A DNA stretch of 64,000 nucleotides, taken from Candidatus Margulisiibacteriota bacterium (lineage in GTDB: Bacteria > Margulisbacteria > WOR-1 > JAHJIW01). The notes under the pieces were generated by a model. It saw only the letters and a list, made by a program, of their open reading frames with translations, made no database searches and was not told the origin of the DNA. The position numbers and the translations under genes were made by a program. Shown piece by piece: positions 15,884 to 59,540 of this stretch (positions within the stretch are counted from its first letter, which is position 1; each line of letters opens with the position of its first letter). The DNA is taken from positions 1 through 64,000 of the forward strand of contig JAHJIW010000011.1 of NCBI GenBank assembly GCA_018823125.1, read 5' to 3'.

Positions 15884-18379
15884 ATGTCTAAAAAAATAAT
15901 CGTTTCTGTTATTTGTTTCATTTTAGGTTTATTAGTGATCAACGCCAACCCTGGGCACGCTTCCCCACCCCACCTCATTCTCAATAAAATCTCCATCAAC
16001 CCTACCGAAAACATATTAAAAACAGGTGACAAAGTAAATATTGGGGTTGAAGTAGAAAATACCAGCGACACTAACATGACTAAGGATTATGATATCTACT
16101 TGTACGTTGATGACCAGCTTTTAAGTCAGATTCTGCACGGTCAGTTAGATGCCAGAAGAAAACGCACCGAATGGGCTCCGCAGGTTTGGACCGCGGCTCC
16201 CGGTCAACACATAATTAAAGCACGTTTAGATATCGCAGATACCAATTATGAAGTCGAAATTGAAAATCCCATCATTACCAAAACCATCATGCTCCAAGGA
16301 TCTGATTTAGGAATAGCATCGGAAGACATTAAATTTAAACCGGATCCACCCAAAGTAGATGAAGAGGCTGAAATTTTGATTAAAGTTCACAACTTCGGCG
16401 ATAAAGAAGCGCCTGCCGGAAGTTTTGATTTGGTTATTTACCAAGAAGTTAATAATACTTGGAAAAAAATTGATCGCCTCCGCCAAAACGATCCGGTCTC
16501 TGCCAACGGAATATTAACTTTTGTTAAAAAGTGGACACCTAAGGCCGCCGAAAGTTACAAATTTATGGCCGAAATTGAAATATCAGCTACCCGACCCGAA
16601 GTTGACGTTGAAGCCGGCAATAACCGCGCCATTGCCTCTGCTAAAACAGCCGAAGGCGGCACTGGTCTTCAATTTAGCAAAGGCGACCTTAAAGTTTTAG
16701 GGACCAGGACCGAAGGAAACACGCTAACCATAGTTGGCGGTCTCTATAACAAAGGAACTCAAATTTCACCTTCCGATACTAAAGTTTTAGTGTATATCGA
16801 CAACAAAGAGATTGGTGAATATCCGTTGGGCAGTATTGCTCCTCAAAAATCAAAATCCTTTCATTTTGAATGGGAATGCACTGCCGGAACTCATCCCATT
16901 AAACTAGCAGCCAAACCCGGAGATAGCGAACACCAGTTATCAATTGAAGTTGGAGAAGTAAAAGAATCCGACAAAATGGTAACCTTCACCGAAAACGACA
17001 TCGAACTTAAAGAAATTAAAAATTTTGAAGGGGCGATCCTCAGCTTACAAATCCAGGCCAAAATCCAAAATCTTCTAGATCGGAAACTTGATAAGGGATC
17101 GTACCTAATTGAAGTATCCATTGATCCCGGAAAAACCGGCTACGTTAACCTGGGCAGATATGACGGCCCGGAAATTGCCGCTAATGGTACAGTTCTTTTT
17201 CCGGTAAGCCCAATCCAATGGCCACCCGCTACCGGCATCCATGAAATACTTTTTCACGTCCGGCCCAAAATTGGCCACCAGGGTGAGTTTTACGTAAAGA
17301 AACGCTTTTCCATCGCCAAGGTTCCCTCATTATTATCAATCGCTAGTTTAGTAGTTCAACCTACAAAAGTACCGCTGGAAGAAGACGTATTGGTTACCGT
17401 AATCATACGCAATATGGGAACCCGCCTATCTCCGCGCGGCAACTTACAAATACGCCGGGAAGGAACTACTTCCTATGTTGCCTGGGCCAGCATTCCGCAA
17501 ATTGAGTCTCAAGCCGTGACCACGGTTCGCACCAACATAAATACAGCATTACTAAAAGTAGGCCAGAACAAATTAGAATTAATCTTGAGCAGCGGAAAAG
17601 ATACGTCCCCTACCATGCAAACATTTCAACTTGAAGTTTTAAAAAAATCTACGGTTTACACAATGACCCAAGCGGACCTAAATGGCCTGCTAGAAATCGC
17701 AAAAAAGAGAAAAACCGCCTGGGAAGAAACCCGGGAAGTTTACCAGGCTTTTCGTGGGTCTATGGACAGAAACAAAGTGCTAAGTGGATTAGGCCAAAAC
17801 ATGGAAAACTTTAAAATTGAAGCTCTAAATAAATTTGTAGAAGAAGTTTCCGAAACACCCCTCGGCTGGATTACCAAAGATATCAGTGACATCAAGAGTC
17901 TGGTGGAAATCGATGCCTTTGTGCGTAAAGTTTTTAGCACCGTGCAAGCCGCCGGTGATAACCTAATGTTCATCTCTTTCTGGGAATCGCCCCCCACTCC
18001 TGATGAAATGTTCCGGGAAAAATACGGCGATACCCGCCTCTACGAAGGATCCAACCGCGAATTTAACTCGGTAGACAGCACCATTAATTATCAAATTGAG
18101 CTAATTGGCAACGAAATTAGTATTTTAGAAAAACTACTCTCCGATAAAGACCCCAGCATTGTCCAGCAACTGCAAAAAAATTATGAAACCCAGCAAGCCA
18201 TGGATTCGGCCATGCCCGCGGCTATTGTAGATTGCTTCTTATTTCAATTAAGATCCGGAAAAAATAACCCTGAAGTTAGCAAACTCGAAGACGCGGCTTA
18301 CAACACCTATTTAAGACTAAAGCTGCAATTTCAAATTGATTCGGATTTATTACAAGTTATGGAAAATAATATTTTCTAA
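15884..18379 (+). CDS. Large secreted protein with CARDB-like repeats (831 aa)
   Basis: Residues 1-26 are a signal peptide (ending near GHASPP). Residues about 27-590 contain four or more Ig-like units typical of CARDB/APHP domains, e.g. LKTGDKVNIGVEVENTSDT, VDEEAEILIKVHNFGDKEAPAGSFDLVIY and EEDVLVTVIIRNMGTRLSPRG. The last 220 residues are alpha-helical and charged, without a membrane anchor. It is probably a surface or periplasmic adhesion/scaffold protein; function unknown. A ribosome site (gggaggg) precedes the ATG. It follows the aldolase pair by 21 bases but need not share function. Its stop abuts the stop of the convergent hydrolase gene. Confidence 0.75.
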   Translation: MSKKIIVSVICFILGLLVINANPGHASPPHLILNKISINPTENILKTGDKVNIGVEVENTSDTNMTKDYDIYLYVDDQLLSQILHGQLDARRKRTEWAPQVWTAAPGQHIIKARLDIADTNYEVEIENPIITKTIMLQGSDLGIASEDIKFKPDPPKVDEEAEILIKVHNFGDKEAPAGSFDLVIYQEVNNTWKKIDRLRQNDPVSANGILTFVKKWTPKAAESYKFMAEIEISATRPEVDVEAGNNRAIASAKTAEGGTGLQFSKGDLKVLGTRTEGNTLTIVGGLYNKGTQISPSDTKVLVYIDNKEIGEYPLGSIAPQKSKSFHFEWECTAGTHPIKLAAKPGDSEHQLSIEVGEVKESDKMVTFTENDIELKEIKNFEGAILSLQIQAKIQNLLDRKLDKGSYLIEVSIDPGKTGYVNLGRYDGPEIAANGTVLFPVSPIQWPPATGIHEILFHVRPKIGHQGEFYVKKRFSIAKVPSLLSIASLVVQPTKVPLEEDVLVTVIIRNMGTRLSPRGNLQIRREGTTSYVAWASIPQIESQAVTTVRTNINTALLKVGQNKLELILSSGKDTSPTMQTFQLEVLKKSTVYTMTQADLNGLLEIAKKRKTAWEETREVYQAFRGSMDRNKVLSGLGQNMENFKIEALNKFVEEVSETPLGWITKDISDIKSLVEIDAFVRKVFSTVQAAGDNLMFISFWESPPTPDEMFREKYGDTRLYEGSNREFNSVDSTINYQIELIGNEISILEKLLSDKDPSIVQQLQKNYETQQAMDSAMPAAIVDCFLFQLRSGKNNPEVSKLEDAAYNTYLRLKLQFQIDSDLLQVMENNIF

Positions 18380-53316: not shown

Positions 53317-53484
53317 TTATTTTTTCTTTTTACGTTTGACCGCTTTTACCATTCGATCAAAAGCCTGAATTTTGGTACGGCCTTCAGTAAGATGCTTCTG
53401 GTAAACCGCGCCATATCCCTTACGATTAGCAATTTTAAAAAACTTAACCTTTTTAATTGATAACTTTTTTTCTTTTTTTGCCAT
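53317..53484 (-). CDS. Small basic protein (55 aa)
   Basis: Start set at ATG 53484 because ggaggtg is well placed. The peptide is very basic (MAKKEKKLSIKKVKFFKIANRKGYGAVYQKHLTEGRTKIQAFDRMVKAVKRKKKK) without membrane segments. It may bind nucleic acid, but no family is recognised. It ends three bases from the convergent GCAxxG-type gene. Confidence 0.65.
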   Translation of the reverse strand: MAKKEKKLSIKKVKFFKIANRKGYGAVYQKHLTEGRTKIQAFDRMVKAVKRKKKK

Positions 53485-56532: not shown

Positions 56533-58518
56533 TTATACCGTTATTATCCCCTTGTCCTTCAAATATGCAAAGCGGTCAATAATTAATTTCCTATTACTAT
56601 TTGCCACATTGATATTATCAAAACTCAATTGAATTATATCTTTCATAGTTCGCTCACCATCACAAAGCAATAGCAAATCATAGGAAGAACTCAGCAGTGG
56701 TAAAGCTTTTGCGATTTGGCCAGGAATATATGCAATATAACTTTTTGATTTATTTATTTTATTCTTTTTTCCTGACTTTAGCTTTTCCATAAGCGAAAAA
56801 ATATCATAATTAAATATTTGAATTATTACATTGTCAGGGATTTTTGGCCGAGAAGCCAGCCTTATTGCCTTCTTAGAAGCAGATGAATTAGCGGCCGAAA
56901 AAGAACTCTCTTGAAATAACTTTTCATGTAAAAACACTTCTTTGATTACTGAATTTGAATTCTGTGCAACGAATTTCTTTAAAAATGGAAAATAAAGCTC
57001 AAACCATTTCTTTTCTTCAGAAACTTGTTTATGTATAAACCCATCTTGATCCATTAAAGAAATTATCTCTTTGCCAAAGTCTAAAGGGGAACACCCTGCA
57101 TATCCACACAATAATATAGTTGTAAGCGGGAATGCCTCAATTAAAAACACGTAAAGCTCACAAATTTTTTCTAAAAACTCATAAGATTTACCTTTTTTTA
57201 TTGGGCGATAAAATGACGGGAAAATATCAGGGTACTTCTGCACCAAAGTTTTCTCCTCGGGCAAGCTTGTTACTAACGAGGAAACATTCGTTTGTAAAAA
57301 TTCTGCATTGTTAAATTTTTCCTTATTTTTACAATATATTTCACTGCCCTTAAGATAAACAAATAAAGAAATATGAACTAGTGAAGAAGGACAATAAATC
57401 CTAGACATAAGAGCGGTTTTTAAAGTCTCATCCATTTGAGATTTATTTTCAAAAGGGAAACCAATTATAAATGTAAGGAAAGGGAAAATATCATTTTGAA
57501 AAAGCATTTCCAAAACATTTTTAAGCTTTGCTAATGGCAATCTTTTTTTGATCTTTTCCTGAACTTCTTTTGATCCCGATTCAATTCCAATCAAAATTCT
57601 CTTACAGCCAGCCTCTTTTAACTTTATTATTAGCTCTTCATCCAAAGCCTCTAAACGAGAACTACATCTCCATCGAATTCCTTTATTCTTAAGCCCGGAT
57701 AAAAACTCACCCGCAAACTTTTTGGAAGCTAAAAAATGATCATGTACAATATGAAAATCAAACCACCCATTATCTTTAATATAGTCTAAAGCTTTTTGCA
57801 TTTCTTCGATAAGCCGTTGAGGAGATTTCATTCGAAAATTTCTTTTCCACATCCTGCAAGTGGAGCAAAAAGTACATCTAAACGGGCATCCCCTGCCAGC
57901 TTCAATTTGCAATGCATTATACTTTTCTAAATGTGGGATTAGCGAAAAATCTAAAAACGGTAATTCATTCAGATTTTCAATAAACAAACGGTCAGGATTT
58001 CTTATTACCTTGCCTTCTTTTCTATACGTGATTCCCTGCACATTTTCGAGCAACCTTTTACCTCTCATTACTTCCAAAACTTCTACTAGGGTAATCTCCC
58101 CTTCCCCCCTAACGATAATATCAACTTGTTCAAATGTCTTCATAACTTCAATTTCATCAAAAGAAACTTCCGGACCACCCAAAATTATCGGGATTTCAGG
58201 AGCAATCTTTTTACATTCACGAGCGATAAGCAATACCCCCGGCAACGAATTACACATCACATTAAAACCAATACTCTTTGGATTAGAAGATAAAATCTTT
58301 TTAGCTGCATTAATAAAAAATCTTGAAGAAAACTTTTTATTTTCAAAAATTATTCCTAAATCAAGAATTTCTGATTGATACCCTAGTTGTTTAATATAGG
58401 TAGCCAAACTTAATAGGCCTAGTGGAATTTCTCGAAACACATCTTCAGAGGTATAAACTTGAACAAGTTCTATATCTGCATTAGTTTTCGCTTTTTGAAC
58501 CAGTCTTTTTGTCACCAT
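56533..58518 (-). CDS. B12-binding radical SAM enzyme with C-terminal PqqD-like domain
   Basis: 661 residues. A cobalamin-binding domain (about 25-145, IPLGLLSLATYIKQLGYQSEILDLG ... ILGGPEVSF) is followed by the radical SAM domain with CxxxCxxC at 211-218 (CPFRCTFC) and GIESGSKEVQEKI. A long linker leads to residues about 580-661 (SYIAYIPGQIAKALPLLSSSYDLLLLCDGERTMKDIIQLSF...RFAYLKDKGIITV). That last part has the pattern of a PqqD-like/RiPP-recognition winged helix. Similar domain orders occur in peptide-modifying radical SAM enzymes. A 48-codon gene lies immediately upstream, separated by a hairpin. Lacks a visible Shine-Dalgarno. AT-rich compared with neighbours, suggesting transfer. The PqqD assignment is by pattern, not alignment. 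Confidence 0.8.
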   Translation of the reverse strand: MVTKRLVQKAKTNADIELVQVYTSEDVFREIPLGLLSLATYIKQLGYQSEILDLGIIFENKKFSSRFFINAAKKILSSNPKSIGFNVMCNSLPGVLLIARECKKIAPEIPIILGGPEVSFDEIEVMKTFEQVDIIVRGEGEITLVEVLEVMRGKRLLENVQGITYRKEGKVIRNPDRLFIENLNELPFLDFSLIPHLEKYNALQIEAGRGCPFRCTFCSTCRMWKRNFRMKSPQRLIEEMQKALDYIKDNGWFDFHIVHDHFLASKKFAGEFLSGLKNKGIRWRCSSRLEALDEELIIKLKEAGCKRILIGIESGSKEVQEKIKKRLPLAKLKNVLEMLFQNDIFPFLTFIIGFPFENKSQMDETLKTALMSRIYCPSSLVHISLFVYLKGSEIYCKNKEKFNNAEFLQTNVSSLVTSLPEEKTLVQKYPDIFPSFYRPIKKGKSYEFLEKICELYVFLIEAFPLTTILLCGYAGCSPLDFGKEIISLMDQDGFIHKQVSEEKKWFELYFPFLKKFVAQNSNSVIKEVFLHEKLFQESSFSAANSSASKKAIRLASRPKIPDNVIIQIFNYDIFSLMEKLKSGKKNKINKSKSYIAYIPGQIAKALPLLSSSYDLLLLCDGERTMKDIIQLSFDNINVANSNRKLIIDRFAYLKDKGIITV

Positions 58519-58542
58519 GAGGAGTTACCTATCATTAAAACC

Positions 58543-58569
58543 AAAGGAATGCATAAAAAACATTCCTTT
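58543..58569 (-). terminator. Hairpin between the 48-aa gene and the radical SAM gene
   Basis: AAAGGAATG (58543-58551) and CATTCCTTT (58561-58569) form a perfect 9-bp stem with a nine-base T-rich loop on the minus strand. No long T-run follows, so it is probably a partial terminator or processing stem that would give more peptide mRNA than enzyme mRNA. Confidence 0.55.
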
Positions 58570-58600
58570 AGCTTAAAATTTACCTGAGTGAAAAATATTA

Positions 58601-58747
58601 CTATTTAAAAGCACTATTAATAGAAATTTTCTTTAATTTTTTAACTTCAGCATTGATATTCGAAACTCTTTGCGCTAATGCCTTGTTTTCTCTTTCTAAT
58701 CTTATGCATGCATTCTTTAGGCTTGCGATTTTTCTTTTTTCTGTCAT
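58601..58747 (-). CDS. Small coiled-coil peptide (48 aa), candidate precursor peptide
   Basis: Start set at ATG 58747, with ggggggtgaaac as ribosome site. The open frame reaches 58822, but that would include the promoter. The peptide is charged and helical with a leucine/isoleucine heptad (IASLKNACIRLERENKALA; INAEVKKLKKI), one Cys at position 14 and the tail ISINSAFK. A sigma-70 promoter lies at 58794-58822, and a hairpin lies downstream, before the radical SAM gene. This is the arrangement of a RiPP precursor followed by its maturase, but a structural or regulatory coiled-coil protein is equally possible from sequence alone. Confidence 0.6.
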   Translation of the reverse strand: MTEKRKIASLKNACIRLERENKALAQRVSNINAEVKKLKKISINSAFK

Positions 58748-58793
58748 TTGTTTCACCCCCCCTCTTATAATCAAAATGTACAACAATGTAACA

Positions 58794-58822
58794 ATTATAG
58801 TTCTCAGGTGTATCTTTTTCAA
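58794..58822 (-). promoter_or_regulatory. Promoter of the 48-aa gene
   Basis: Minus-strand TTGAAA (58822-58817), 17 bases, TATAAT (58799-58794). The expected transcript has a leader of about 40 bases before ATG 58747. It is back to back with the promoter of the divergent methyltransferase. Confidence 0.75.
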
Positions 58823-58824
58823 GG

Positions 58825-58853
58825 TTTACGGCATCTATTCTATTTGTTATACT
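58825..58853 (+). promoter_or_regulatory. Methyltransferase promoter, leaderless geometry
   Basis: TTTACG (58825-58830), 17 bases, TATACT (58848-58853), six bases (all T) to the ATG at 58860, and no Shine-Dalgarno. Confidence 0.6.
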
Positions 58854-58859
58854 TTTTTT

Positions 58860-59540
58860 ATGGATAGCGAAAATCTATCGAAAAGGTTTTTTGGGGGCAT
58901 TGGGGTCAAAGGATTAAAAGCCATATTGTCTCCCCAAAGAACATCCAATGACTTGAAACTAGCTATAAATTTTTGTTCAAAGCACGACAAAATATTAGAT
59001 CTGGCTTGTGGTTACGGACGTATTACATTACTGTTAGCCAAGCTAGGTTATGACATCCAAGGGATAGATATTGAATCAAAATACATTAAAAGTGCCAGGT
59101 CCAATGCAAAAAAGCAAAAACTCAGGGTCACCTTTGCTATTGGAAATATACGGAAAATGCCCTATACAAATGAATTTTTCGATAAAATAATATGCCTCTG
59201 GTCAAGTTTTAACTATATATTATTAAAAAACGAACAAATACAATCACTCAACGAAATATTTCGCGTTTTACGATCGGGCGGGCAAGCCATATTTGAAATG
59301 GACAACGCAGAAAAAAAAGGGTTAAAACAACTATTGGAAATAAAGGGAAAAGGCCCCGGGAGACGTTTATTACCACAAATGATTCGCTATAGCCAAAACA
59401 AATATTTACCAGAAATGCGCTATTTTCATGATCGACAAACTCTTACCAAAATCTGTAACGCTTCAAAATTTAAGCGGTTTAAAATTGGATTGAAAAACTT
59501 GTACGGTGAGAGAAGGTTAATATTGTATCTTTACAAATAA
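58860..59540 (+). CDS. Class I SAM-dependent methyltransferase (226 aa)
   Basis: Start set at ATG 58860 from the promoter position; the frame is open to 58653 but that part reads as membrane-like nonsense antisense to the 48-aa gene. Motif I DKILDLACGYGRITLLLAK (about 43-61), the acidic loop GIDIESKYI and motif IV DKIICLWSSFNYI are present, followed by LNEIFRVLRSGGQAIFEM. Substrate unknown. It is divergent from the peptide/radical SAM unit and shares its AT-rich composition, so it could act on the same product; that link is inference. Confidence 0.85.
   Translation: MDSENLSKRFFGGIGVKGLKAILSPQRTSNDLKLAINFCSKHDKILDLACGYGRITLLLAKLGYDIQGIDIESKYIKSARSNAKKQKLRVTFAIGNIRKMPYTNEFFDKIICLWSSFNYILLKNEQIQSLNEIFRVLRSGGQAIFEMDNAEKKGLKQLLEIKGKGPGRRLLPQMIRYSQNKYLPEMRYFHDRQTLTKICNASKFKRFKIGLKNLYGERRLILYLYK

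Follow-up and report, generated by a model that had tools for sequence, protein, structure and literature searches.

Genes and features of the locus

The window, a 64,000-nt stretch (positions 1 to 64,000) of one contig from a Candidatus Margulisiibacteriota bacterium, contained at nt 56533-59540 the locus described here, which carried an enzyme gene, a short peptide gene and a methyltransferase gene and is considered as a possible part of a pathway for a ribosomally synthesized and post-translationally modified peptide (RiPP). Based on the open reading frame (ORF) list, Pfam, AlphaFold and Foldseek, the first gene (56533-58518, minus strand) encoded a 661-aa B12-binding radical S-adenosylmethionine (SAM) enzyme with a very probable RiPP recognition element (RRE) fused to its C-terminus. 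Upstream of it on the same strand, a 48-codon gene (58601-58747), identified as an ORF and by codon statistics, encoded a helical peptide, the candidate precursor. A class I SAM-dependent methyltransferase of 226 aa (58860-59540, plus strand, ATG at 58860; Methyltransf_31/25/11) was encoded divergently.

The 48-mer gene was preceded by a Shine-Dalgarno sequence read directly as GAGGGGGGGTG (58754-58764, minus strand) and by TTGAAA-17-TATAAT (58822-58794, minus strand), which scored highest (11/12) among 18 promoter-like sites of this region; the number of such sites was not far above that in shuffled sequences (13.3 ± 3.4). A hairpin with a 15-bp stem lay in the gap separating the peptide and enzyme genes (58538-58574, minus strand) and was real but modest, 5 of 200 shuffles folding equally well (z = -2.45); its inverted repeat occurred once within the window. 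Because no U run follows the stem at its 3′ side, it was rejected as an intrinsic terminator. A scan of the locus against Rfam, hairpin included, returned no family, and therefore no known cobalamin riboswitch is present. With a GC content of 0.329, versus 0.411 ± 0.022 for 3-kb windows, the locus was the least GC-rich 3 kb of the window. Thus, the genes, the promoter, the strong Shine-Dalgarno sequence and the AT-rich block described in an earlier note on this DNA were all recovered, as was its hairpin, then placed at 58543-58569. No protease or exporter was encoded at the locus, the neighbours being a TMEM175-type channel and a Na/H exchanger; one or both are usual in RiPP loci, but not obligatory.

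The enzyme and its C-terminal domain

The cobalamin-binding domain (residues 28-147, 58078-58437, minus strand; PF02310, 53.4 bits) and the radical SAM core (residues 206-368, 57415-57903, minus strand; PF04055, 82.2 bits) both scored past the Pfam cut-off, and the CxxxCxxC motif (C211, C215 and C218) was invariant across 11 family members. Thus, the protein is a B12-dependent radical SAM enzyme. AlphaFold modelled the whole enzyme with a pLDDT of 86 and a pTM of 0.86, and the best solved neighbours in Foldseek were CysS, MgmA, TokK, OxsB and TsrM, which are B12 radical SAM enzymes, mostly methylases. The best NCBIfam model was ApyD (NF050148), with 253.6 bits over residues 33-437, short of the equivalog cut-off of 750 bits. 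The HpnJ and BchE models scored as well (132 and 116 bits), and rSAM_ocin_1 (TIGR03975), which describes a C-methyltransferase of RiPP maturation, scored 103.8 bits, under its subfamily threshold of 281.85. Taken together, the prediction that the protein is an RRE-fused B12 radical SAM RiPP maturase of the ApyD-like kind is well supported.

The PqqD-like domain occupied about residues 560-661 (56536-56841, minus strand). In the AlphaFold model it consisted of a strand (565-571), a helix (573-582), two strands (590-597 and 606-608) and three helices (610-617, 625-634 and 641-655), which is the βββ-ααα order that defines RREs (PMC12710340) plus one helix after strand 1. Foldseek of the isolated domain gave TglHI, 3DEE, TbiB1 and PadeB1 among its leading matches (E 0.002-0.5), the last two being lasso RREs with structures solved together with a leader peptide. 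The Pfam PqqD family (PF05402) did not match the C-terminus, even as an isolated domain, and reached only 15 bits against a cut-off of 23.4 in a relative (L037); such a match is missing in some accepted RREs and so is not strictly defining. A search of the PDB sequences with the C-terminal profile gave MePqqD (5sxy) as its single, weak match (E = 2). The enzyme of an Omnitrophota relative (L035) lacked this tail, and a separate PqqD gene of that locus passed Pfam with 51 bits; in hhalign, the C-terminal profile of the window family aligned in register with this genuine PqqD (P = 0.006-0.0096). These comparisons of models and profiles make it very probable that the C-terminus is an RRE. The PqqD-type domain proposed earlier is therefore backed by element order, Foldseek and profile comparison, Pfam being blind to it, and the fold, whose absence would have spoken against the proposal, was present in the model.

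The 48-aa peptide gene

The codon log-odds of the 48-mer gene were 0.22 per codon, compared with 0.29 ± 0.13 for real genes and -0.01 ± 0.15 for other frames, and 5% of non-coding frames of equal length reached this value. Thus, a short peptide gene adjoins a modifying enzyme, as expected of a RiPP locus. The only Pfam matches of the peptide were sub-threshold coiled-coil models (bZIP, 20.6 bits; DivIC, 16.4 bits). A Leu/Lys spacing common to the 48-mer and the other peptides described below was rejected as a sign of homology, coiled coils giving such spacing.

The expectation that small ORFs would be conserved beside homologues of the enzyme held for position, since such ORFs with Shine-Dalgarno sequences stood beside the relatives on another contig, C17, of this genome and beside those in one Omnitrophota genome and two further genomes of the Saganbacteria class; it failed for sequence, none being detectably homologous to the 48-mer. 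Position, promoter, Shine-Dalgarno sequence, length and the small peptide genes beside enzyme relatives all favour a precursor, and the 48-mer is a plausible candidate substrate of the window enzyme, at odds slightly better than even.

A related gene cluster on contig C17

Sequence searches of the genome (G000, 1.73 Mb), from which the genome-wide counts are taken, gave four copies of the enzyme: the window copy, a single one on contig C14 (50%) and a tandem pair on C17 (45-47%). The latter belonged to a larger and apparently undescribed peptide-modification cluster (locus L009 = C17:30000-49999, genes on the minus strand), which encoded, besides these two close paralogues, a SPASM radical SAM enzyme, an 801-aa B12 radical SAM enzyme, an RRE-like 91-aa protein, two M16 peptidases, two 53-aa peptides and a 66-aa peptide, and which was flanked by a U32-type peptidase and close methyltransferase copies. 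The best model of the SPASM enzyme was WgkB (275 bits, below the cut-off of 650).

The two 53-mer genes (L009:15212-15373 and 16897-17058, minus strand) stood on either side of the SPASM radical SAM and RRE-like genes. Their products were 77% identical with the common end KGIARSVAYWI, and the last 18 codons differed synonymously only. The 66-mer (L009:5635-5835 = G000:C17:35634-35834, minus strand) contained five GT[VL]G[YV]SR repeats, which differed by synonymous codons only, save V/L and Y/V, and ended in a heptad helix. Because tails and repeats vary synonymously, these are genuine peptide genes under purifying selection. The 53-mers are strong candidates for RiPP precursors of no recognised class, while the 66-mer, judged by its repeats, looks like a multi-core peptide. 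The M16 pair (L009:5926-8639) also resembled YfmF/YfmH, proteases linked to EF-P modification, and an efp-like gene (L009:414-974) was located about 5 kb beyond it on the same contig.

Besides the enzyme paralogues, three features connected the window locus with C17. First, the window methyltransferase had two close paralogues in the genome, at C17 34164-34844 and 49424-50095 (51% and 50%), the next-best matches being short (28-38%, E 1.7e-6 or weaker); no close copy was found near the enzyme arrays of three related genomes (G013, G018 and G020), and the association is therefore specific to the system of this genome. Second, the promoter block of the 48-mer gene (58782-58824, minus strand), CCTTGAAAA..A.ACA.CTGAG...TATAAT...T.CATTGTT, was shared with the 66-mer gene at 32 of 43 positions in an ungapped alignment. 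Outside both hexamers 20 of 31 positions agreed (binomial p ~1e-4, with base frequencies assumed), and the next-best match among 111 kb from this genome was 26/43. The pairwise score had a p of 0.002 against shuffles and shared the top score among 153 pairs. With up to 3 mismatches, a 22-base core pattern occurred at two sites only in the 1.73 Mb, both before peptide genes of the system; the pattern was derived from these two sites, which match with zero mismatches by construction, so that its informative part is the lack of a third site. Judged by sequence, the promoter match is good but not overwhelming evidence. Third, the GC content of the window locus (0.33) was like that of most C17 cluster genes (0.31-0.38) and not that of flanking genes (0.40-0.46). 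The window locus is thus likely a satellite of the RiPP pathway of C17, a reading for which the domains, the predicted RRE, the C17 paralogues and the common promoter block are given directly by sequence or model.

Distribution of the enzyme family

The enzyme family scored above threshold in 4 of 74 genomes of the phylum. No relative was found by searching named genomes with the single enzyme sequence, and the records matched in an alignment-based search were Candidatus Saganbacteria/Margulisiibacteriota. In the family tree, the window enzyme grouped with the other G000 copies and those of G020, without resolution of the finer order, and the copies are therefore old paralogues.

Peptide genes accompanied the family in several relatives. 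G018 had four copies of the enzyme in an array, along with SPASM proteins and a trio of paralogous 71-77-aa peptides (L023:9633-9866, L024:458-673 and L024:3757-3972, minus strand), in which an Arg-rich start and a C-terminal helix were conserved and the middle was variable, unlike the usual leader-core layout. In G013, a 59-aa peptide containing SWGYGYH and ending in AAASWGYGYHSSSGGRDVAR (L026:10190-10369, minus strand) was encoded beside U32, M16, SPASM and three B12 radical SAM genes, a set related to that of C17. In the Omnitrophota locus, the separate PqqD and a 54-aa peptide with the tail NYLAAIFVGTALAGCTPAKS (L035:3062-3551, plus strand) were encoded directly upstream of the RRE-less enzyme relative and a SPASM enzyme.

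An MsbA-like ABC transporter with a helix-turn-helix-like C-terminal extension adjoined the family in three genomes (L010:3270-5267, L023:13060-15060 and L025:11337-13340); it is a possible exporter of the product and was absent from the window locus. At the C14 paralogue (L010:1-3169), an IS3-type element was present at the contig end beside the 3′ end of the gene, and the frame was extended by a repeated tail (VVLPIFQAPTKRETWLS twice), possibly an insertion or an assembly break.

Comparison with known RiPP systems

The closest known system was ApyD of the aminopyruvatide apy cluster of Burkholderia, an RRE-containing B12 radical SAM enzyme with the methyltransferase ApyS in its cluster, which produces beta-methyltyrosine at the penultimate Tyr (PMC10635010). 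The window locus shared with it the combination of such an enzyme with a methyltransferase, as well as the best NCBIfam match, but the score was far under the cut-off, no MNIO or P450 was encoded beside the window enzyme, the precursor was unrelated and the 48-mer contains no Tyr on which to act. PbsB of biphenomycin-like RiPPs is likewise of the B12 radical SAM type, uses a RiPP precursor as substrate with an RRE-containing partner in its cluster, and cross-links ortho-tyrosines made by an MNIO (PMC12257519); in this comparison, made by published description and not by sequence, the window locus differed in having no MNIO partner.

Two further systems resembled the C17 cluster. Its SPASM enzyme had its best model in WgkB of the tryglysin-type SPASM radical SAM maturases (PMC8092268), but the tail ARSVAYWI lacks the W-G-K motif, and the window enzyme belongs to another subfamily. 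The short precursors, the RRE-like 91-mer, the SPASM enzyme and the M16 pair recall the PqqA-D-E-F/G logic of PQQ and mycofactocin, whereas the PqqE and mycofactocin models were not the best match and C17 adds three B12 radical SAM enzymes.

Proposed function and alternatives

Taken jointly, the window locus is read as a dispersed part of a RiPP pathway with its main cluster on C17, with a probability of about 0.55. A ribosomal peptide, most likely the upstream 48-mer, would bind the RRE as an additional strand, the fourth, and so be delivered to the active site, where a 5'-deoxyadenosyl radical from the [4Fe-4S] cluster and SAM would abstract a hydrogen and methylcobalamin would donate a methyl group; we infer these steps by analogy with ApyD and with further enzymes of the B12 radical SAM type. 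The modification would by default be C-methylation, the alternative being a C-C cross-link as in PbsB, and a second methyl group may come from the methyltransferase. C17-encoded peptidases would release the product, and removal of the leader by the M16 pair is a guess. The hairpin would lower the level of the enzyme transcript relative to that of the peptide.

Several observations weigh against this reading. The methyltransferase belongs to a generic family and one of its C17 copies lies in a nucleotidyltransferase/aminotransferase operon, because of which the tie of the methyltransferase to peptide chemistry is weak. The Foldseek matches to RREs, at the E values given above, were not beyond doubt, and the 100-bp gap upstream of the C14 paralogue was free of small ORFs. 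Searches of the same genome and 56 relatives, none of them from its genus or family, found no homologue of the 48-mer. The 48-mer resembled no precursor found: its similarity to the C17 53-mers, the C17 66-mer and the G018 peptides, tested by pairwise alignment and by a hidden Markov model of helical tails against pattern-preserving shuffles, was not significant (p 0.1-0.9), and it contains neither Trp nor Tyr, both of which are present in the tails of the C17 53-mer and the G013 peptide. Since the precursors of this system (C17 53-mers, G018 triplet, G013 and L035) are mutually unrelated in sequence, this dissimilarity is no strong counter-evidence.

The best-surviving alternative is that the enzyme works in trans, its substrates being the C17 precursors (the 53-mers or the GTVGYSR repeat peptide), with the 48-mer as a non-modified accessory peptide under the same control. 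Consistent with it are the position of both close paralogues beside the 53-mers in the C17 operon, the lack of a protease in the window, the dissimilarity of the 48-mer and the common promoter. Against it, the 48-mer is encoded immediately upstream of the enzyme on the same strand, the enzyme has no further promoter-like site of comparable quality upstream, and the usual partner of an RRE is the peptide of the adjacent gene. This alternative is possible, with perhaps one chance in four of being correct.

In a wider and somewhat more doubtful view, one RiPP system of this lineage would extend over several loci with a common promoter type. Its RRE-fused B12 radical SAM enzymes, which have multiplied to four copies in each of two genomes and three in another, would act on several unrelated peptides. 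The recognition region would then be the C-terminal helix in the G018 triplet, the C17 66-mer and perhaps the 48-mer, and the modified part would lie before or after the helix instead of following a classical N-terminal leader.

The 48-mer is unlikely to have a role outside RiPP chemistry, whether as a small coiled-coil protein of the FtsB, ZapB or zipper type that regulates or serves as a scaffold, or as a leader-type ORF that controls expression. Its heptad pattern agrees with such a role, and its sole family matches were the sub-threshold bZIP and DivIC models, but coiled-coil scores this low come from sequence composition, the promoter block recurs at a C17 gene that clearly encodes a repeat peptide, and the G018 enzymes, too, have peptides ending in a helix beside them. 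That the enzyme modifies a lipid, nucleotide or cofactor in the manner of HpnJ or BchE is very improbable, for although both models score and the neighbours of the C17 methyltransferase include CDP-alcohol and nucleotidyl transferases, the peptide enzyme ApyD scores far higher, the enzyme carries the predicted RRE, and peptide genes stand beside its close paralogues.

B12 radical SAM enzymes perform some of the hardest peptide chemistry known, and few have a known substrate. No described RiPP was found in the literature for this uncultured bacterial class, one small genome of which here possesses several paralogues, likely peptides and a promoter linking two loci, and thereby offers concrete enzyme-peptide pairs for testing. 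If the window locus is a dispersed part of the C17 pathway, cluster-based mining would miss part of it, because that part lies on another contig. Elsewhere in the window, an ORF for a Lys-rich 55-aa peptide (53317-53484, minus strand) was preceded by a strong Shine-Dalgarno sequence, MAKKEKKLSIKKVKFFKIANRKGYGAVYQKHLTEGRTKIQAFDRMVKAVKRKKKK.

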